Of a stretch of DNA of 64,000 nt, positions 132 through 9,571 are shown piece after piece. The stretch comes from Pseudomonas sp. B6002. Lineage in GTDB: Bacteria; Pseudomonadota; Gammaproteobacteria; Pseudomonadales; Pseudomonadaceae. Position 1 is the first letter of the stretch. Each line of letters starts with the position of its first letter. The notes below the pieces were generated by a model that worked only from the letters and a program-made list of their open reading frames with translations, was not told the DNA's origin and searched no databases. A program made the position numbers and the translations under genes. The DNA is taken from contig NZ_JACAOY010000004.1 in the NCBI RefSeq assembly GCF_013385985.1, positions 157,580 through 221,579 on the forward strand, written 5' to 3'.

Positions 132-1303
132 TCAAAAACAGCGTGCCCGCATAAAATCCCCCCACCGTCGCACCAGGTAGTTGTGCTCATCCATCACCGA
201 ATTCCACACCGCAATATGCCCCATGCGCTGCTCATAAGAACCCCCATCACGCACGTCGCCAATGTCGATCAACGGCAATCCATCGCTACCCAACAACTCC
301 TCCCGCGCAGGCAATCCGGCATACCAGTAATCCCATTCGGCACTGCTGAGGTGGTCACGGCTGCGCGCCGGGTTACCGATGTAATACCCCTGGCGCGCCA
401 TCACCGCACCCGGCCAACCCGACAGCCACCAATTGAGGTAGGCATACGCCGCATCCAACACCGCCCCCTGCGCATGGCGTGACAACGACAACCCGCCGAA
501 CCACGCGCGATAACCTTCACGCGGCACCGCCAAGCGATACTTCACCCCCGCGCGATGCAGGCGCATCAAGGTCGGCGACCACAGGCTCTGAATATCGATG
601 GTCGGGCTGAGCATCAATTGCGCCGCCTCTTCGTCATCCGACCAGAACGCCGCAAAGTGCCCTTCCCTCTGCTTGCGCACCAGTATGTCGGCGAGCACGT
701 CGATCTCTTCGATGCTCATGTTGCCGATGTCCTTGAACTGCGCCAGCCCCGCGCCCTGTACCGCCAGCGCCGCGTCCAGGGCACCGATGGCCGCGTCGCT
801 TTGCAATGCGGTACGCGCGCTCCAGGCCGGGTCCAGCAACCACCCCCAACTTTCGTTGCCATGGCAAAAACCCTCGGGCAAGCGCTCGGGGCGGTAGGCG
901 AAACTGTCGGCGTTGTGAGTCAGGGGCAACATGCTGATGCGCTCGGTCACCGTGCTGCCAAGGCTGCCGTCGTGCTGCACGAACAGGCGCTCGCTCGGGA
1001 CGCTGCCACTGCCCAGGCGATCATCGGCCGACAGCCGCCCGCGCTTGGGCAGGTCGTTGATCTCATGCCACAGCGCGATACGCCGCGTGTCGATCGGCTG
1101 GATCGCCCGCGCCGGCCACACGAAGTCGACGTTGTGAAACCACTGATCGTAAAGGTCGTAGCTGTCGGGTTGCATCACCGCGATGCGCTGGGCCTGTTCC
1201 ACATCGTGCACCTGATACACCAGGCGAATGCCCAGGTCTTGTTCGGCCCGCACGCGCAGGCATTCGAGCAGGGTCACCGAGGTGCCGAGGACGCGTAAGG
1301 TGA

Positions 1304-1307
<4 letters not shown>
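132..1307 (-). CDS. Solute-binding-protein-like (PotD-type) protein lacking a signal peptide
   Basis: 391 aa. The fold looks like the type-2 periplasmic binding proteins of polyamine/iron ABC transporters: a beta-strand start (ITLRVLGTSVTLLE), a DLYDQW segment, and a C-terminal NPARS...LSSAEWDYWYAG stretch typical of PotD-like proteins. The start at 1307 is set by an ATGA overlap with the stop of the upstream GTPase gene, so the two are translationally coupled; an open frame continues upstream but there it only shadows the GTPase. No N-terminal hydrophobic signal is visible, and no ABC permease or ATPase gene lies in the window, so export and a transport role are unproven. It could be a cytoplasmic ligand-binding protein. 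Last gene of the leftward catabolic cluster. Confidence 0.7.
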
Positions 1308-2278
<971 letters not shown>

Positions 2279-2303: not shown

Positions 2304-2386
2304 TGTAGGAGCCCGGCTTGTCGAATCGTCGCACCGCGGCGATGGCGTATTCAGAATCGCCATCGCCGGCAAGCCGGGCTCCTACA
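2304..2386. repeat. REP/REPIN palindrome (TGTAGGAGCC class)
   Basis: Two inverted REP arms, TGTAGGAGCCCGGCTTG on the left and CAAGCCGGGCTCCTACA on the right, flank a short linker with its own GGCGATGGCG / CGCCATCGCC pair. It sits inside the operon between the 102-aa gene and the GTPase gene. Confidence 0.85.
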
Positions 2387-2388
2387 GG

Positions 2389-2697
2389 TCAGGGTGTTTC
2401 AGCAAGCACGTTTAGGTGATCGAGCAGTTTGGGATCAAGGGGATCCAGCGGCCGCCCAAGCATGACCTCGGCCGCCTGCCAGAGTTGATCCAAACCGCTG
2501 GCCAATGCCTGTTTGCCGGTGGCACCCAACAACAGGTAGGAGGCGCCCTGGAAGTCCTCGACCTTGAGCCGGAACACCGCCAGCACTTGGTTGATCGCCG
2601 CGATCCGGCGCAGGCGCTCGCGGCGCCTTGGCAGTTCATCGCCCAGGGGGTCGCTCCAGTGCAGGTCTTCGCCGAGCAATCCGCAGAGTCCGCACAT
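2389..2697 (-). CDS. Small hypothetical protein with N-terminal CGLCG motif
   Basis: 102 aa, begins MCGLCGLLGEDLHW. The two cysteines three residues apart at the very N-terminus could bind a metal or act as a redox pair. The rest is predicted helical and charged (DELPRRRERLRR, then a leucine-rich middle). The start at 2697 is preceded by GAGG about 8 bp upstream, and the upstream dehydrogenase stops 13 bp earlier, so it is in the operon. I do not recognise a named family. Placement just before a COG0523 GTPase invites a metal-handling role, which is inference only. Confidence 0.75.
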   Translation of the reverse strand: MCGLCGLLGEDLHWSDPLGDELPRRRERLRRIAAINQVLAVFRLKVEDFQGASYLLLGATGKQALASGLDQLWQAAEVMLGRPLDPLDPKLLDHLNVLAETP

Positions 2698-2710
2698 GGC
2701 TAAACCTCGC

Positions 2711-3460
2711 TCATGGCATGACGTCGCCGGAGTTCGGGCCCAGGGTCTGGCCGACGAACAGATTGCCGCCGGGCTCGCTGGCGAGCAGCACGGCGGTGGG
2801 CGCCACTTCATCAGCCAGACCGAAGCGGCCCAGGGGCAGTTCCTTGGCCTTGGCGCGCTTCCAATCGTCGCTGATCCCGCCCACCAGCGGCGTTTCAATC
2901 GGGCCAGGGGCGATGGCATTGACCAGCACGTTGTCCTTGGCCACTTCCAGGGCCAGGGATTTGGTGAAGCCAATCACGCCCGCCTTGGCCGCCGCGTAAT
3001 GGGTAAGTTCGGCACCGCCCTTGATGCCCAGTTGCGACGCCACGTTGATGATGCGTCCCCAGCGCTGCGCCAGCATGTGCGGCAAGGCGCGCTGGCTGGC
3101 GACGAACACACTGGTGAGGTCGACGCGCAGCATGTCGTTCCACATCTCGATGGACAGGTCGACACAGCGCGCCTGAGTGAGCATGCCCGCGTTGTTGACC
3201 AGAATGTCGATGCCACCGAAGTGTTCGACGCAGCGGTCCACACTGGCCTGGGCGCCTTCGACGGTGCCGACGTCTGCCAGGCACTCGACCACCTCGGCGC
3301 CGAGGTTGCGGCAAGTGATCGCGGTTTCGGCGAGGCTCGCGGCATTGCGGTCGGCCAGCAGCAGGCGTGCGCCTTCGGCGGCATAGGCACGGGCGATGGC
3401 GGCACCGATGCCGCTGGCGGCGCCGGTGATCACAGCGCGTCGGTTAATGAGTTGGTTCAT
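2711..3460 (-). CDS. SDR-family oxidoreductase (first of two)
   Basis: 249 aa, a classical short-chain dehydrogenase of typical length. The NAD(P)-binding TGAASGIG motif is at residues 12-19, NNAG occurs mid-protein, and the catalytic Ser...Tyr-x3-Lys set is visible (Ser in VASQ, then YAAAK). The C-terminal segment ends with a glycine-rich GQTLGPNSGD. It would interconvert a hydroxyl and a carbonyl group on an intermediate of the pathway encoded here; the substrate cannot be read from the sequence. It is a paralogue of the SDR at 3603-4367, from which it is separated by a REP element. Confidence 0.9.
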   Translation of the reverse strand: MNQLINRRAVITGAASGIGAAIARAYAAEGARLLLADRNAASLAETAITCRNLGAEVVECLADVGTVEGAQASVDRCVEHFGGIDILVNNAGMLTQARCVDLSIEMWNDMLRVDLTSVFVASQRALPHMLAQRWGRIINVASQLGIKGGAELTHYAAAKAGVIGFTKSLALEVAKDNVLVNAIAPGPIETPLVGGISDDWKRAKAKELPLGRFGLADEVAPTAVLLASEPGGNLFVGQTLGPNSGDVMP

Positions 3461-3493
3461 ACAAAAATCTCCTCAGACAAAACACCGATCCAT

Positions 3494-3582
3494 TGTGGGA
3501 GCTGGCTTGCCTGCGATGGCGGTGGGTCAGCAGCACATGTATTCACTGAACCACCGCCATCGCAGGCAAGCCAGCTCCCACA
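3494..3582. repeat. REP/REPIN palindrome (TGTGGGAGCTGG class)
   Basis: Inverted arms TGTGGGAGCTGGCTTGCC and GGCAAGCCAGCTCCCACA around a short linker that itself carries CGATGGCGGTGG / CCACCGCCATCG. It lies in the 142-bp gap between the two SDR genes of one operon. Confidence 0.9.
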
Positions 3583-3602
3583 TTTGGATCTATGTACATC
3601 CG

Positions 3603-4367
3603 TTAGTCTGGCCAGCGCACTGTGAGACCACCGTCGATCACGATGCTCTGGCCCGTGAGGTAGCTCGACGCTTCACTGGTCAAGAACTGCACCAGCGACG
3701 CCACTTCATCCGCCCGCCCGACCCGGCCCAGGGGAATCGCCCGCGCAGCCTTGGCCAGCCCTTCCGGCCCCAGCGAGTTCTGCGCATCCAGCGACTGCGG
3801 CGTCTCGATCAACCCGGGAATCACCGCGTTGCAGCGAATCCCCAGCGGCGCCAACTCCACCGCCAGCGAACGGCACAACCCCGGCACACCGGCCTTGGCC
3901 GCCGCGTAGTGGCTGTGCTCCTGCCAGCCGTACACGCCGCCGGCAATCGACGAGATCGCCACCAGCGCGCCGCCCTCACGCATATGCCGCGTCGCCGTGC
4001 GGAAGGTGCGCATCACCCCCGTCAGGTCGACATTGAGCATCTCGTCCCACAGTGCATCGCTCATCTCCAGCAACGGTGCGCGGCGCAACAAACCAGCGTT
4101 GGCCACCGCGTAATCCAGGCGGCCGAAATGCTGCACGGCTTGCTCGGCCAGCGCATCCACCGAGGCGCTGTTGCCCACGTCCAGGGGCAGCATCAGGCAC
4201 TCACCGCCCACCGCTTCTACCAGGCCCACGGTGGTGTGCGGGTCGTGAGGGTCGGCCGGGTAATACCCGCCGACCACCGCTACGCCCTTTTGCGCATAGG
4301 CAACGGCGAGGGCTTGGCCAATGCCGCTGGCGGCACCGGTAATCAAGGCAACTTTACGACTCATCAT
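3603..4367 (-). CDS. SDR-family oxidoreductase (second of two)
   Basis: 254 aa. Classical SDR with TGAASGIG near residue 10, NAGL at about residue 90, Ser (AISS) and YAAAK catalytic residues, and the common C-terminal GQSIVIDGG signature. The MFS transporter gene ends 7 bp upstream of the start, so the two are co-transcribed. It resembles 3-oxoacyl-ACP reductase-like catabolic dehydrogenases, but the substrate is unknown. Having two diverged SDRs in one operon suggests consecutive oxidations or opposite stereospecificities on a hydroxylated intermediate (inference). Confidence 0.9.
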
Positions 4368-4374
4368 TCACTCC

Positions 4375-5715
4375 TTACTGAACGGTTTCCGGACGCACAT
4401 GGCGAGCGGCGAACATCAAGGCGCCGGACAGGAAGCACGGCAGTGCACCGAACCACAACGCGGCGGTCTGCCAGTCGCTGCCGGCCGACAGCACCTGGGT
4501 GGCGCCAAAGCCTGCGACCACCGCGCCGATCGGGCCCATGGCATGGATGATCGCGCCACCGGTGGCGCGGATGCTGGTGGGGAAACTTTCACTGATGAAG
4601 AACAGCGCCGCCGAATACGGACCGATCAGGAAGAACAGGCCCAGGCTGTACAGCCCGACCACCATCGCCATGTTGCTCGGGCCGAACAGCATGCCGGCGA
4701 ACGACAGCCCGCCGAGCATCCAGCCCAGGCCGATCACGTTGCGACGGCCGATCTTGTCGCCCATCCAGCCATGACTGAGGTAACCGCAGTAACCCACCAG
4801 GTTCGACAGCACGAGGATGATCAGTGAGTTCTCGAACGAGATGTGGTGAACGCTGACGATCACCGAGGTGCCCAGCACGCTGAACACCTGAATCGCCGCC
4901 CAGTTGAGCAGCAGCGCTGCGCCGATCACCAGCGTGGCGCGACGGGCCGGTCCACGGAACGCAGCCTTGAGACCGGCCTTGCTGTGTTCGTCATAGTCGA
5001 CGCCGTAGGTCACCGCGACGTTTTGCGCTTCTTTCACCGCGCCGCTTTTACGCAGCTCGCTGATGCGCTGGTGGATCTGGAACTGCGGGCTCTCCTTGAG
5101 CTTGCGCGCCATGATCGCAATCACGATGGCGGGGATCGCGGCGAAGATGAAGCAGCCCTGCCAGCCGATGATCGGCAGCAACAACGCAGTCAAACCGGCA
5201 GCGATCAACGCCCCTACCGGCCAGCCGCCCTGCACCAGGCTGTAGATAAAGCCACGGCGCTTGGTCAGGCGCGGGTCTTCCGAGGCGCCATACAACTCAC
5301 TCAAATACGTGGCGTTGACGGTTTCCTCGGCATAACCCAGGCCACCCAACGAACGGATCAGAATCAGCGGTGACTTGCCCCACGCGCCGCCAATCGCCGT
5401 CAGCGCAGAGCACAGCGCAGAACCGGCCACGGTGAAGATGATGCCTTTGCGCCGGCCCAACTTATCCACAACCGGGCCAATGGCAAAGGCGACCACCGCC
5501 GTGCCCACGGCGACCCAGGTCGCGATTTGCGCTTGCTCCACTTCACCCCAGCCAAAGTGGCGGCCGATCTCCGGCAGCAGGGTGCCAAACAGGATGAAGT
5601 CATACACCGCAAACACCCAGGCGAAGAACGCGATCCAGGTGGCGAAGCGCACTTCCTGGGACGTCAGTTGCCGGGGTTTCCAGCCGGTCAGGTCAAGCTT
5701 GTTGTAGATAGACAT
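4375..5715 (-). CDS. MFS transporter, metabolite:H+ symporter type
   Basis: 446 aa with about twelve hydrophobic segments and the loop 2-3 signature DKLGRRKG, repeated in the second half as DKIGRR. The central cytoplasmic loop is long and charged, as in sugar/organic-acid symporters. The start at 5715 is preferred over an upstream in-frame ATG because GAGG sits 8 bp before it. Flanked by hydrolase and dehydrogenase genes, it most likely imports the pathway substrate. A REP element fills the gap to the upstream imidase gene. Confidence 0.88.
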   Translation of the reverse strand: MSIYNKLDLTGWKPRQLTSQEVRFATWIAFFAWVFAVYDFILFGTLLPEIGRHFGWGEVEQAQIATWVAVGTAVVAFAIGPVVDKLGRRKGIIFTVAGSALCSALTAIGGAWGKSPLILIRSLGGLGYAEETVNATYLSELYGASEDPRLTKRRGFIYSLVQGGWPVGALIAAGLTALLLPIIGWQGCFIFAAIPAIVIAIMARKLKESPQFQIHQRISELRKSGAVKEAQNVAVTYGVDYDEHSKAGLKAAFRGPARRATLVIGAALLLNWAAIQVFSVLGTSVIVSVHHISFENSLIILVLSNLVGYCGYLSHGWMGDKIGRRNVIGLGWMLGGLSFAGMLFGPSNMAMVVGLYSLGLFFLIGPYSAALFFISESFPTSIRATGGAIIHAMGPIGAVVAGFGATQVLSAGSDWQTAALWFGALPCFLSGALMFAARHVRPETVQ

Positions 5716-5765
5716 GGGTTGCGCCTCAGGGATGGGAGCATTGGGGGCCAATTACGCAAACCACC

Positions 5766-5849
5766 TGTAGGAGCCGGCTTGCCGGCGATGGCGCCCTTGA
5801 AATTCACGCAGGTCTCAAGGGCCTCATCGCCGGCAAGCCGGCTCCTACA
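5766..5849. repeat. REP/REPIN palindrome (TGTAGGAGCC class)
   Basis: Arms TGTAGGAGCCGGCTTGCCGG and the matching CCGGCAAGCCGGCTCCTACA, with GCGATGGCGCCCTTGA / TCAAGGGCC-like inner sequence. It sits between the imidase and MFS genes of the operon. Confidence 0.9.
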
Positions 5850-5861
5850 AGGTGGGCGACA

Positions 5862-6740
5862 TCAGGTACGGGGTTGGCGGCGGATAAAGTCGTCGGCGAT
5901 TTCGTCGAAGGTGACGAAGCGCACGCCGGCATGGCTCTGGATGTGTTCGATCAGTCGCTCCAGCATCAGCAGCACTTGCGGGCGGCCGGACACGTCCGGG
6001 TGAATGGTCATGGTGAACACCGCGTGTTCATGCTCGCGGTAAACCCAGTCGAACTGGTCGCGCCACATTTCTTCGAGGTGACGCGGGTTGACGAAGCCGT
6101 GACTGTTGGGGGCTTTCTTGATGAACATCATTGGCGGCAGGTCATCGAGGTACCAGTTGGCCGGGATCTCCACCAGGTCGGTTTCTTCGCCACGCACCAG
6201 GGGTTTCATCCAGGTGTCGGGGTGCTGGCTGTAGTCGATCTTGGTCCAGCTGTCGCCCTTGCGCACGTAGTAGGGATGGAAGTCGTTGTGCATCAGGCTG
6301 TGGTCGTACTTGATGCCTTTTTTCAGCAGCAGCTCGTTGGTGACCTTGCTGAATTCCCACCACGGCGCCACGTAACCGGTGGGGCGTTTGCCAGTGACCT
6401 GGGTGATCAGCTCGATGGATTTATCCAGGACGATCTCTTCCTGTTCGGCCGTCATGGCGATGGGGTTTTCGTGGCTGTAGCCATGCACACCAATTTCGTG
6501 GCCGGCGTCGGCCACGGCCTTCATCTGCTCGGGGAAGGTTTCCATCGAGTGGCCGGGGATAAACCAGGTGGTGCGCAGGCCGTAGCGTTCGAACAATTTG
6601 AGCAGGCGTGGCGCGCCGACTTCACCGGCGAACAGGCCGCGGGAGATGTCGTCCGGCGAGTCTTCGCCGCCGTAGGAACCGAGCCAGCCGGCGACGGCGT
6701 CAACGTCGACGCCGAATGCACAGAGAATGTCTTTAGCCAT
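5862..6740 (-). CDS. Polysaccharide-deacetylase-fold hydrolase, probable cyclic imide hydrolase (imidase)
   Basis: 292 aa. It has the NodB-homology layout of metal-dependent deacetylases: an early acidic motif (VDVDAV, residues 11-16) and the HGYSH metal-ligand pair (His86, His90), with a PuuE/PgdA-like continuation (YVAPWWEFS). From memory it closely resembles the P. putida imidase (about 293 aa), which opens cyclic imides such as succinimide to half-amides and shares this fold; that equivalence is an inference. The amidase gene ends 11 bp upstream, which fits imide to half-amide to acid plus ammonia. Alternative: an allantoinase (PuuE)-like amidohydrolase. Confidence 0.8.
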
Positions 6741-6751
6741 GGTGTGTCTCC

Positions 6752-8083
6752 TTAAACGTTGAGTACGGATTCGACGGACAACGCAGCGCGCAACAGGCGA
6801 GCGTCCTCCCCCGTCGGGGCACTGAGCAGCAGCCCGGTGGGCAGGCCCCCGGCATCGCGGCCGCTGGGCAAGGTCACGCCGGGCATGTCGAGCAAACTGC
6901 CCGGCATGGTCAGGCGCAGGGTGGCGAGGTTGGTGGTGACGAAGAGGTCGTCGTCGGCTTCCAGCGGCGCGAGGGGCGGCGCCACGTGGGCGACGGTTGG
7001 GGTGATGAGCACGGCGCCGTCGAGGTCATCGATCAGTTGTTGTTGCAGGCGCTGGCGCGCGTCCATCAGGTGCAGCAGTTGGCTGGCGGGCAGCGCACGC
7101 GCGGCTTCGAGGCGACGGCGCACGCGAGGGTCGAGCTGTTCGGCGTCGGCGCTGTCGAGCAAGGCTTCATGCAGGGCAAAGGCTTCGAAGGAACCTAGCC
7201 AGCCTTGGTTTTTGATCAGCGCCAGGGTGGCCTGGAAGGTGGCCGACGGGCGCACTTCTACCAGGGCGCCGTGGGCTCGCAATTGATCAATGGCACGCAG
7301 CAGGTTGTTGCGCACGGCCGGCTCGATGTCTTCCAGGGCGCCTTGTTCAAGCACAAAACGCTGGCCCTTGAGGCTGCGCGCGCTGTGGGTGTGGGCACGG
7401 CCGTGAAGCAGGTCGTCGATGGCCAAGGCATCGCGCACGCTACGGGTCAGCGGGCCGAGGCTGTCGAGGGTGTGGGCCAGGGGAAACACGCCGTCGCGGC
7501 TGTAACGTCTACTGCTGCTGCGATAGCCGACCAGGCCATTGAGCGCGGCGGGAATGCGGATTGAGCCTGCCGTGTCGGTGCCCATGGCGATCGGTACGAT
7601 CCCGGCTGCCACGGCAACCGCCGATCCCGAGGAAGAGCCACCGGGAATACGCGGTTGGTCGTTCCCGTGGGGATTGTGTGGCGTGCCGAAATGCGGGTTC
7701 AGGCCCAGGCCGGAATACGCCAGTTCGCTGAGGTTGGTCTTGCCCACGCTGACCATCCCGGCGCGGCACAACAGGCCCACCGTGGGCGCATCCAGCAAGG
7801 CCTGGGGCGCATGCCGACGGTAGGCGGCGCCGGCCGTGGTGACGCTGCCGGCCATGTCGAACAGATCTTTCCAGGCCAGCGGCACACCGTCGAACACACT
7901 CAACGGCTGGCCGGCACGCCAGCGGGCGGCGGCGGCCTCGGCTTCACGGCGGGCGCGCTCGGCGGTCAGGGAAATAAACACGCCTGGGCAGCGGCTCGCT
8001 TGATCGAGCGCCTGTTCGAGGGCCTGCACCGGGTCGCTGCGACCGCTGGCAAAAGCCTCGGCCATGGAAGTGGCGTCTGACAT
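6752..8083 (-). CDS. Amidase (amidase-signature family)
   Basis: 443 aa. It carries the amidase signature: catalytic Lys in the WKDLFD segment, [14 protein letters not shown], and the nucleophile-bearing [13 protein letters not shown], giving the Ser-cisSer-Lys triad. Start at 8083: GAGG lies 9 bp upstream, inside a longer open frame whose first GTG overlaps that ribosome site. First gene of the leftward operon; a 27-bp palindrome lies 18 bp upstream of the ATG, where a repressor would block it. Likely hydrolyses the half-amide produced by the downstream imidase (inference). Gatatase subunit A is unlikely given the context. Confidence 0.92.
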
Positions 8084-8100
8084 CAAGATGACCCTCACAA

Positions 8101-8127
8101 AACGTACATATTAATAAAATGTACATT
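8101..8127. promoter_or_regulatory. Candidate operator 1 for the divergent GntR regulator
   Basis: Read on the minus strand this is AATGTAC, 13 AT-rich bases (ATTTTATTAATAT), then GTACGTT. The arms are inverted repeats. The same 27-bp design recurs at 8268-8294 in opposite orientation. It lies 18 bp upstream of the amidase start codon. Confidence 0.75.
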
Positions 8128-8267
8128 TTACAAAGGCAGCTTTCGTGCCAGTCTCTGTTGAGTAGTTTTTGCGCAGCGCTGGTTTTTCACCCATAGCTAC
8201 GGGATAGAAGGCTTCAGGCCTGACAAAAAAATCTTGCCTAAACGCCGCGAAGCGCTCTCAATGAAAT

Positions 8268-8375: not shown

Positions 8376-9410
8376 ATGAGAGAATCCCCGGCCACCGTCC
8401 TACATGCCCCAGAGAAACCGATGAAAGCAGTGTCCACCTCGGCCTCCCGTTACGCGATGATTCACCAGGTTCTGCGTGACGCGATCGTCAATGGCACTGC
8501 CCGCCACGGCCTGGTGTTGCTGGAAGCGCCCCTGGCCGAGCTGTTCGGCACCAGCCGCGTGCCGGTGCGCAGGGCCCTGGATTTGCTGCATGACGAAGGC
8601 CTGATCTGCCGTTTCAATGGCCGGGGTTATCTGATCAACCCAGAAGGCCTGGCCATGGAGCCGCTGCGCCTGCCATTGAGCCATGCCCACCTGGGCCTGG
8701 ATGGCGAGCAGGACTTGGTGGACACGCGGCCACTGGGCGAGCGCATCGTCGAGGAGATCGGCGCGGCGCTGTCCACCTGCATCGCCTTCGGGCATTACCG
8801 CCTGGATGAACAAGCCGCCGCCGACCACTACGGGGTCAGCCGCGCGGTGGTGCGTGAGGCGTTGATGCGTTTGCGCGACCGCGGCCTGGTAGAGAAAGAG
8901 CCCTACTCCCAATGGCTGGCCGGGCCGTTGACCGCGCGGGAAGTCACCGAAGACTACGAACTGCGCGCCTGCCTGGAACCCGAAGCGTTGCGCCAGAGCG
9001 CCCCAAACCTCGAGCGCGAACTGCTCGAAGCCATGTTGCAGCGCGTGCTCGACGCCCAGGACAGCCCCCACTGCAGCCTGGAAGCCATCGAGCAGATCGA
9101 AGAAGACCTGCACCAACGCTGCCTGGCCGGCCTGCAAAACCGCAAGATTGCCGCGCTGATCCGCCAGGGCCAGAGCCCGATGATCATCAGCCGGATTTTC
9201 TACCGTTTGCTGGGGATCGGCGCCGATCCGGCGATGTTGGCCGAACATCGCTTGATTCTGGAGTTGCTGCTGCATGGGGCATTTGATGCGGCGGCGTTGA
9301 ACCTGCGTGAGCATTTGCAGCGGGCCAGGCAGCGGATGTTGCAGCGGTTGAAGGTGTTGTCGGTGTTGCCCGAGCAGCCGCTCCCCAGCTACCTGCACAA
9401 AATCAGCTGA
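8376..9410 (+). CDS. GntR/FCD-type transcriptional regulator with two winged-helix domains
   Basis: 344 aa. Two separate GntR-like winged helix-turn-helix regions can be read: residues about 28-87 (LAELFGTSRVPVRRALDLL ending NGRGYLI) and about 119-182 (AAADHYGVSRAVVREALMRL). An all-helical FCD ligand/metal-binding domain follows to about residue 330. Ordinary FadR/VanR-type proteins have one such DNA-binding domain and about 230 aa. Divergent from the amidase operon and probably its repressor. Start uncertain: ATG at 8421 (residue 16) is equally possible, as neither has a strong ribosome site. Confidence 0.85.
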   Translation: MRESPATVLHAPEKPMKAVSTSASRYAMIHQVLRDAIVNGTARHGLVLLEAPLAELFGTSRVPVRRALDLLHDEGLICRFNGRGYLINPEGLAMEPLRLPLSHAHLGLDGEQDLVDTRPLGERIVEEIGAALSTCIAFGHYRLDEQAAADHYGVSRAVVREALMRLRDRGLVEKEPYSQWLAGPLTAREVTEDYELRACLEPEALRQSAPNLERELLEAMLQRVLDAQDSPHCSLEAIEQIEEDLHQRCLAGLQNRKIAALIRQGQSPMIISRIFYRLLGIGADPAMLAEHRLILELLLHGAFDAAALNLREHLQRARQRMLQRLKVLSVLPEQPLPSYLHKIS

Positions 9411-9427
9411 CCCCACACCGTTGCCAA

Positions 9428-9516
9428 TGTGGGAGCTGGCTTGCCTGCGATAGCGGTTCACCCGTTACATCCTCAGCAACTGACACAACGCAATCGCGGG
9501 CAAGCCAGCTCCCACA
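9428..9516. repeat. REP/REPIN palindrome (TGTGGGAGCTGG class)
   Basis: Arms TGTGGGAGCTGGCTTGCC and GGCAAGCCAGCTCCCACA, between the GntR gene and the lon promoter; inner sequences CGATAGCGG and CGCAATCGC. Confidence 0.9.
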
Positions 9517-9571
9517 GGGGCCGCGGTGCGTTGGTCAATATCATGCAATTTGTTGCTAACTGCTCAACGCC

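Follow-up and report, generated by a model that had tools for sequence, protein, structure and literature searches.

What does a solute-binding protein that carries no export signal do at the end of a catabolic operon? The question arises from a locus of Pseudomonas sp. B6002, found in a stretch of 64,000 nucleotides (nt) that was analysed as a whole and is called the window here (RefSeq assembly GCF_013385985.1, contig NZ_JACAOY010000004.1, positions 157,580 to 221,579). Eight leftward genes encode an amidase (AMD), a CE4-type imidase (PDA), an MFS transporter (MFS), two short-chain dehydrogenases (SDR1 and SDR2), a small cysteine protein (CYS), a COG0523 GTPase (COBW) and the solute-binding protein (SBP), and a GntR-family regulator (GNTR) is encoded divergently. 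The nine-gene cluster probably serves to degrade small nitrogen-containing ring compounds. Its least expected part, and the one with the most evidence of something new, is SBP, which we propose to be a cytosolic sensor working with the GntR regulator, a proposal to which we give an even chance.

A binding protein without export signal

The genes and sites at the centre of the question are as follows (window coordinates).

132..1307, minus strand: SBP, solute-binding protein lacking a signal peptide, proposed to be a cytosolic sensor (PF13416, 28.1 bits against a cut-off of 27)
8376..9410, plus strand: GNTR, divergent regulator combining a pair of GntR helix-turn-helix domains with an FCD domain (alternative start at 8421)
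8104..8128, minus strand: operator-like doubled box, 17 nt from GTAC to GTAC, the sole match to the doubled pattern (up to 3 mismatches) in a regulon search of the window genome
8265..8297, minus strand: a further and weaker doubled box, GTAC/GTAT with a spacing of 17 nt, read from the sequence and recurring in relatives

SBP falls barely above the cut-off of the SBP_bac_8 family and has weak PotF and PotD matches. Relatives were collected by searching with an alignment of 11 signal-less SBPs; of the 511 confirmed matches, the best 80 were used, a set that leans to close relatives. No export signal was found in the SBP N-termini read, and no twin-arginine motif turned up in any of the 80 loci when the frame was followed upstream for as long as it stayed open, to a maximum of 30 codons. 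Relatives outside the signal-less group mostly have a N-terminus resembling a twin-arginine translocation (Tat) signal, and they include separate ABC-type paralogues within clusters such as L121, L233 and L238.

The origin of the group was examined with a maximum-likelihood tree of 60 rows, midpoint-rooted, with groups set beforehand by locus and N-terminus. Fifteen signal-less and 15 Tat-type proteins grouped together with support of 99/98, separate from the 30 others. In all 15 loci of the Tat-type group (L085-L099), the gene is followed by a histidine-kinase match in the same direction and permease matches are absent, the L092 kinase match being weak and 0.6 kb off and the kinase domains being Pfam-checked for L086 only. 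In the ABC kind (L080 and L100-L116), two permeases lie downstream in 18 of 18 loci. The L086 kinase is a hybrid kinase, and L085-L099 are a candidate binding-protein-dependent two-component sensor.

SBP might instead be a leftover or leaderless part of an ABC importer, as its relatives with Tat-like N-termini, many of them beside two permeases, would suggest. However, the Pseudomonas cluster lacks a permease (neither permease nor ATPase genes occur in the window cluster), a separate Tat-type protein coexists with SBP in ABC-type clusters such as those named above, and the tree sets SBP apart from the ABC proteins. The ratio of non-synonymous to synonymous substitution rates (dN/dS) of SBP is 0.02-0.15 against 12 relatives, a rough estimate with many synonymous rates near or above 1; among the nine genes, it is the second lowest in seven of these comparisons and takes third or fourth place in the remaining five. 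Such values indicate purifying selection and thus no decaying leftover. Selection, the tree and the presence of a Tat-type paralogue alongside led us to reject a vestigial importer part, and we consider this reading very unlikely.

Thirty-one alignment columns are conserved (at least 85%) only in the signal-less group, including D54, F57, H58 and D61 and a C-terminal EHN.LVRR stretch (E374, H375, N376, L378, V379, R380, R381); judged from the alignment, they are candidates for a partner surface. In L082 and L117, the SBP gene is present as pieces (fragments or broken frames), which suggests that the locus is decaying in some genomes.

Linkage of the binding protein to the tandem GntR regulator

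The linkage was examined in 28 genomes that carry the imidase and lie outside the Pseudomonas group, a set of 25 to which G216, G288 and G369 were added. A tandem GntR was scored from a full-length match at E < 1e-45. Signal-less SBP is present in all 15 genomes with such a regulator (G369, G493, G635, G600, G730, G581, G678, G756, G734, G753, G606, G622, G607, G701 and G588) and in none of the 13 without (G603, G288, G516, G739, G666, G614, G660, G642, G723, G624, G647, G653 and G216). Two GntR helix-turn-helix domains followed by FCD were recognized by Pfam in GNTR and in its relatives from L121 and L138, the remaining regulators being assigned by full-length BLAST or genome-search matches.

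The position of SBP varies: it follows COBW, lies downstream of the GntR gene (L138), stands tail to tail with it (L229, L230) or, in five genomes and Paraburkholderia, lies upstream and co-directional with about 50 nt between the matches. On plasmids of Agrobacterium rubi (L239) and Aminobacter (L240), the GntR-SBP pair occurs without CYS, COBW and a window-type imidase; the L240 pair adjoins an amidase and a relative of the imidase at 29%. At L239 (14164-21152), the pair is beside annotated coenzyme F420 genes (cofC, cofD, cofE, cofH, npdG) and a flavin-dependent oxidoreductase.

Doubled boxes recur upstream of the operon. A GTAC pair spaced by 14-24 nt is found in 50 of 70 intergenic regions, which are related to one another, against 2.5% of shuffles, and the 70 regions hold 51 pairs with a spacing of exactly 17 nt.

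Several observations weigh against a sensor acting on GNTR. The 13 SBP-negative genomes were judged by identity (best match 31-40% or none), so that the 38-40% binding proteins of G647, G666 and G739 count as not signal-less by identity alone, and Fisher's test on the contrast gives 2.7e-8 with kinship ignored. In Pseudomonas, SBP is the final operon gene, coupled to COBW and not adjacent to GNTR; in the window and in 40 of the 80 loci, the two genes overlap by 4 nt where COBW stops and SBP starts. Near two tandem-GntR paralogues (36% and 31%) no binding protein is encoded, and the spaced GTAC pair is missing from 20 of the 70 intergenic regions. Signal-less SBPs form one clade with a branch support of 72/43 only, and more than one signal loss is hence possible. 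Finally, GNTR retains the residues that we take to be the FCD metal site, so FCD might sense directly and alone; the regulators of L233, L238 and L242 are without two of these histidines.

The same operon could thus be read with SBP as a cytosolic buffer or as a protein that partners either COBW or the imidase, handing over metal or substrate, while the FCD domain of the regulator senses the ligand by itself. The SBP/COBW overlap is in keeping with this, as are the FCD residues that GNTR retains, inasmuch as their presumed roles hold. Against it, PDA, CYS and COBW occur without SBP in 13 imidase genomes, and SBP tracks the tandem GntR, with which it is seen even where COBW is absent (L239, L240). 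This reading appears unlikely to us, though by no means negligible.

A probable operon for cyclic imides

The remaining genes of the operon are listed below.

6752..8083, minus strand: AMD, amidase-signature protein, likely half-amidase (PF01425; NCBIfam NF004766, 694 bits against a cut-off of 559)
5862..6740, minus strand: PDA, CE4-type cyclic imidase, HpPgdA/HxnM-like (match to 3qbu and active-site residues)
4375..5715, minus strand: MFS transporter, likely importer (PF07690/PF00083; top NCBIfam model TIGR00895, under its cut-off)
3603..4367, minus strand: SDR1, short-chain dehydrogenase (PF13561/PF00106)
2711..3460, minus strand: SDR2, short-chain dehydrogenase (PF00106/PF13561)
2389..2697, minus strand: CYS, small MCxxCG protein, proposed COBW/imidase adaptor (co-occurrence with imidase and COBW)
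1304..2278, minus strand: COBW, COG0523 GTPase, proposed to deliver metal to the imidase (PF02492 and PF07683 above cut-off; CxCC)

Inverted repeats resembling repetitive extragenic palindromes (REPs) lie inside the operon and past GNTR.

2304..2386, strand not assigned: REP-like inverted repeat, inside the operon
3494..3582, strand not assigned: REP-like inverted repeat, inside the operon
5766..5849, strand not assigned: REP-like inverted repeat, inside the operon
9416..9528, strand not assigned: REP-like inverted repeat, past GNTR

A preliminary description, made from the letters of the segment 2389..8083, had recorded six leftward genes from the amidase to the small cysteine protein, REPs between them and a continuation into a COG0523 GTPase and a binding-protein-like gene. 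All these elements were recovered, the genes on the minus strand and with labels that agree with the family scans. Co-occurrence of the genes across genomes, which it had put forward as a check, was also borne out. By tblastn-based counts, the order GntR, then divergently AMD-PDA-MFS-SDR1-SDR2-CYS-COBW-SBP, is complete in 69 of the 80 loci, eight others being broken off at contig ends; of the 72 loci that extend to the place of AMD, three (L176, L180 and L222) lack AMD only. The hosts belong to several Pseudomonas groups, one further gammaproteobacterium and Halotalea. Among 198 genomes of the family, the imidase (E <= 1e-60) was found in 16, and SBP in those same 16 at no less than 73% identity. 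In a seventeenth genome, G103, the relative reaches only 40% and begins with a Tat-like stretch; some SBP match at E <= 0.001 exists in 45 of the 198 genomes, and beyond G103 the remainder are weak. In the phylum sample, the imidase is patchy, 10 of the 398 genomes having it at E <= 1e-80.

Beyond Pseudomonas, the cluster was met on plasmids of rhizobia and other bacteria. The whole cluster is also present on Klebsiella plasmids (L234, 7262-16382; five records matched) with insertion sequences nearby, which suggests that it moves between hosts.

PDA matches 3qbu, the Helicobacter pylori protein HP0310 (HpPgdA), with 540 bits over residues 1-291 of 292 without a gap, and the HP0310 residues D12, D14, H86, H90, H247, W127 and W128 are found at identical numbers. 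HP0310 is described as inactive on GlcNAc, chitotriose, several acetylated amines, dipeptides/peptides and allantoin, and as having a closed pocket and no signal peptide, and a small ligand was argued for; polyamine-importer genes stand beside its relatives (PMC3084791). HxnM of Aspergillus nidulans is 64.2% identical to the imidase of P. putida YZ-26 (PMC9304392). HP0310 itself is given no known substrate in its paper (PMC3084791). As for allantoin, PDA was rejected as a PuuE allantoinase, scoring 88.3 bits with TIGR03212 against a cut-off of 424.6.

Since database records label the protein a polysaccharide deacetylase and the H. pylori relative is named PgdA, a role in deacetylating cell-wall or chitin-like polymers was also considered. 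The inactivity of HP0310 on GlcNAc and chitotriose, its closed pocket and its lack of a signal peptide (PMC3084791), together with the opening of an imide by HxnM (PMC9304392), speak against it; cell-wall deacetylation was rejected on these two papers and is scarcely credible.

The pathway logic has a precedent. In the lower half of the A. nidulans nicotinate pathway, the short-chain dehydrogenase HxnW makes 3-hydroxypiperidine-2,6-dione, the cyclic imidase HxnM opens it and the amidase HxnN then frees nitrogen, as the last enzyme of the HxnW-HxnM-HxnN series on a hydroxylated glutarimide (PMC9304392). The window likewise has a short-chain dehydrogenase, a CE4-type imidase and an amidase under common control, matching the Hxn regulon as families only. 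The preliminary description could match the operon to no described pathway, which is only partly right: the dehydrogenase-imidase-amidase series is already described (PMC9304392). The window differs from Hxn in its second dehydrogenase, the MFS and COG0523 proteins, the CxxC protein, the binding protein and GntR control. Upstream pyridine-oxidising enzymes are also missing among the nine window genes, the only part of the genome searched for them. Its guess of a hydroxylated or otherwise decorated imide comes close to the Hxn substrate (PMC9304392); by analogy with these relatives, our best guess for the window is a substrate of the hydroxyglutarimide type.

Other clues to the substrate were few. 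The nearest solved structures of SDR1 and SDR2 are generic FabG-like chains only, and those of the amidase, a probable amidase and a biuret hydrolase, are uninformative on substrate.

A core module around the imidase

PDA, CYS and COBW occur in that order in all 25 further imidase loci counted (L081, L113 and L120-L142; L117, with only a 24% match seen, was left out), MFS-SDR1-SDR2 being inserted between PDA and CYS in L081 and L124. The three genes are also found in three further genomes (L226-L228) and in all nine plasmid loci read that carry a window-type imidase (L233-L238, L241-L243), a non-random sample chosen from match lists for imidase and SBP.

On the grounds of the 25/25 co-occurrence, COBW is proposed to deliver metal to the imidase and CYS to act as an adaptor, and we think a dedicated metallation of the imidase by the two somewhat more probable than its opposite. 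CYS has no Pfam or NCBIfam family and no credible match in the PDB; an alignment of 12 members shows invariant C2, C5, G6, W14 and D85-P86-L87. COBW resembles the metallochaperone GTPases of COG0523 in having both Pfam domains and the CxCC motif, and scores under the NCBIfam cut-offs of CobW, ZigA and PRK11537; it differs from them in being apparently tied to a single imidase cluster.

The genes around the core vary. The importer may be an MFS protein, a Pot-type ABC system or, in Leisingera, an annotated NCS1 transporter, and the amide hydrolase an amidase or an asparaginase (L138; Thioclava as annotated). Some core clusters without short-chain dehydrogenases contain a D-hydantoinase-family protein and CN_hydrolase, often with CMD and a 3-hydroxyisobutyrate-dehydrogenase-like protein: in L122, L133-L137, L139 and L141, CN_hydrolase adjoins the core, and D-hydantoinase-family, CMD and 3-hydroxyisobutyrate-dehydrogenase-like genes replace the short-chain dehydrogenases in most. 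An Asp/Glu/hydantoin-racemase-family gene follows the L113 cluster. The Shinella, R. johnstonii and Acidiphilium clusters have, as annotated neighbours, genes for a biotin carboxylase and a carboxyltransferase of 5-oxoprolinase or urea-carboxylase type, and PxpA is named in Acidiphilium. These varied importers, amide hydrolases and hydantoinase-, racemase- and carboxylase-type neighbours point to small cyclic amides and imides as the target. Together, the imidase family, the active-site positions and the interchanging importers and amide hydrolases support imide/amide catabolism, the function given in the preliminary description, and we hold it to be highly probable.

The sharing of the core with hydantoinase-type clusters counts against our best guess for the substrate. 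The target could be a hydantoin or a dihydropyrimidine rather than an imide of the glutarimide or succinimide type, as would fit related clusters with a D-hydantoinase-family protein (TIGR02033, 582 bits against a cut-off of 393), CN_hydrolase and a hydantoin/Asp racemase-family protein, and the NCS1 transporter of Leisingera. However, hydantoinase-type clusters are without short-chain dehydrogenases, the window cluster has these and an amidase and no hydantoinase, and the substrate of HxnM is a hydroxyglutarimide (PMC9304392). A hydantoin-type target seems doubtful, while deserving serious weight.

L236 (19426-24873) and L240 (904-7914) contain a more distant CE4 relative (29-31%), accompanied by an amidase, an ABC transporter and a protein labelled 'urea carboxylase-associated'.

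Proposed model and known sensor systems

In our model, the GntR-controlled operon would serve the use of a small cyclic imide, or of a hydroxylactam converted to the imide. The MFS protein would import the substrate, one short-chain dehydrogenase would oxidise a hydroxyl to yield the imide, the zinc-type imidase would open the ring to a half-amide and the amidase would release ammonia from it; the other dehydrogenase may oxidise the hydroxy acid or an earlier intermediate, and COBW and the CxxC protein would load metal into the imidase. We infer the order of these steps. Signal-less SBP, in the cytosol, would bind the substrate or an intermediate and inform the tandem helix-turn-helix GntR, as AmiC does for AmiR; we likewise infer both the sensing and the contact of SBP with GntR. 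Taken as a whole, a GntR-controlled imide operon with a cytosolic SBP sensor is in our judgement evenly poised between right and wrong. The observations of the preliminary description are confirmed, and its interpretation is partly supported.

Cytosolic members with other functions are mentioned in a survey of solute-binding proteins (PMC9602780). AmiC-AmiR of the P. aeruginosa amidase operon and NasS-NasT of nitrate assimilation pair cytosolic binding-protein sensors with ANTAR RNA-binding partners (PMC3795266). The window shares with them a signal-less solute-binding protein tied, in the proposed case of SBP, to the regulator of a nitrogen operon. It differs in the regulator, which is a tandem helix-turn-helix GntR (GntR-GntR-FCD), no ANTAR partner gene being present among the operon genes. 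The binding protein differs as well: AmiC is LivJ-like, whereas SBP is SBP_bac_8/PotD-like. The identification of SBP as an AmiC was hence rejected: the regulator linked to it belongs to a DNA-binding family, and SBP is itself a different kind of binding protein. Only a proposed likeness in mode of action is retained.

A literature search returned no paper, by title or abstract start, on this operon or on a GntR/cytosolic-SBP pair, most subscription journals being outside its reach. More tentatively, and a little short of an even chance, we suggest an independent case of internalised binding-protein sensing, the first with a DNA-binding partner to emerge from our searches. A kinase-serving lineage would have lost its Tat signal, moved inside the cell and paired with a tandem winged-helix GntR reading doubled GTAC boxes; the pair would form a portable regulatory module, joined here to a dedicated imidase-metallation module of a COG0523 GTPase and an MCxxCG protein.

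To our knowledge, most clients of the COG0523 chaperone family are unknown, and a COG0523 GTPase and a CxxC protein tied to one enzyme provide a testable client for this family. Binding proteins that lack a signal are readily classified with transport proteins, and those described here bear the database labels 'extracellular solute-binding protein', 'ABC transporter substrate-binding protein' and 'signal peptide prediction'. If SBP is a sensor, it would show how a periplasmic receptor can become the cytosolic partner of a transcription factor, and it would provide both a gene pair to seek in other catabolic clusters and a natural imide-responsive switch.

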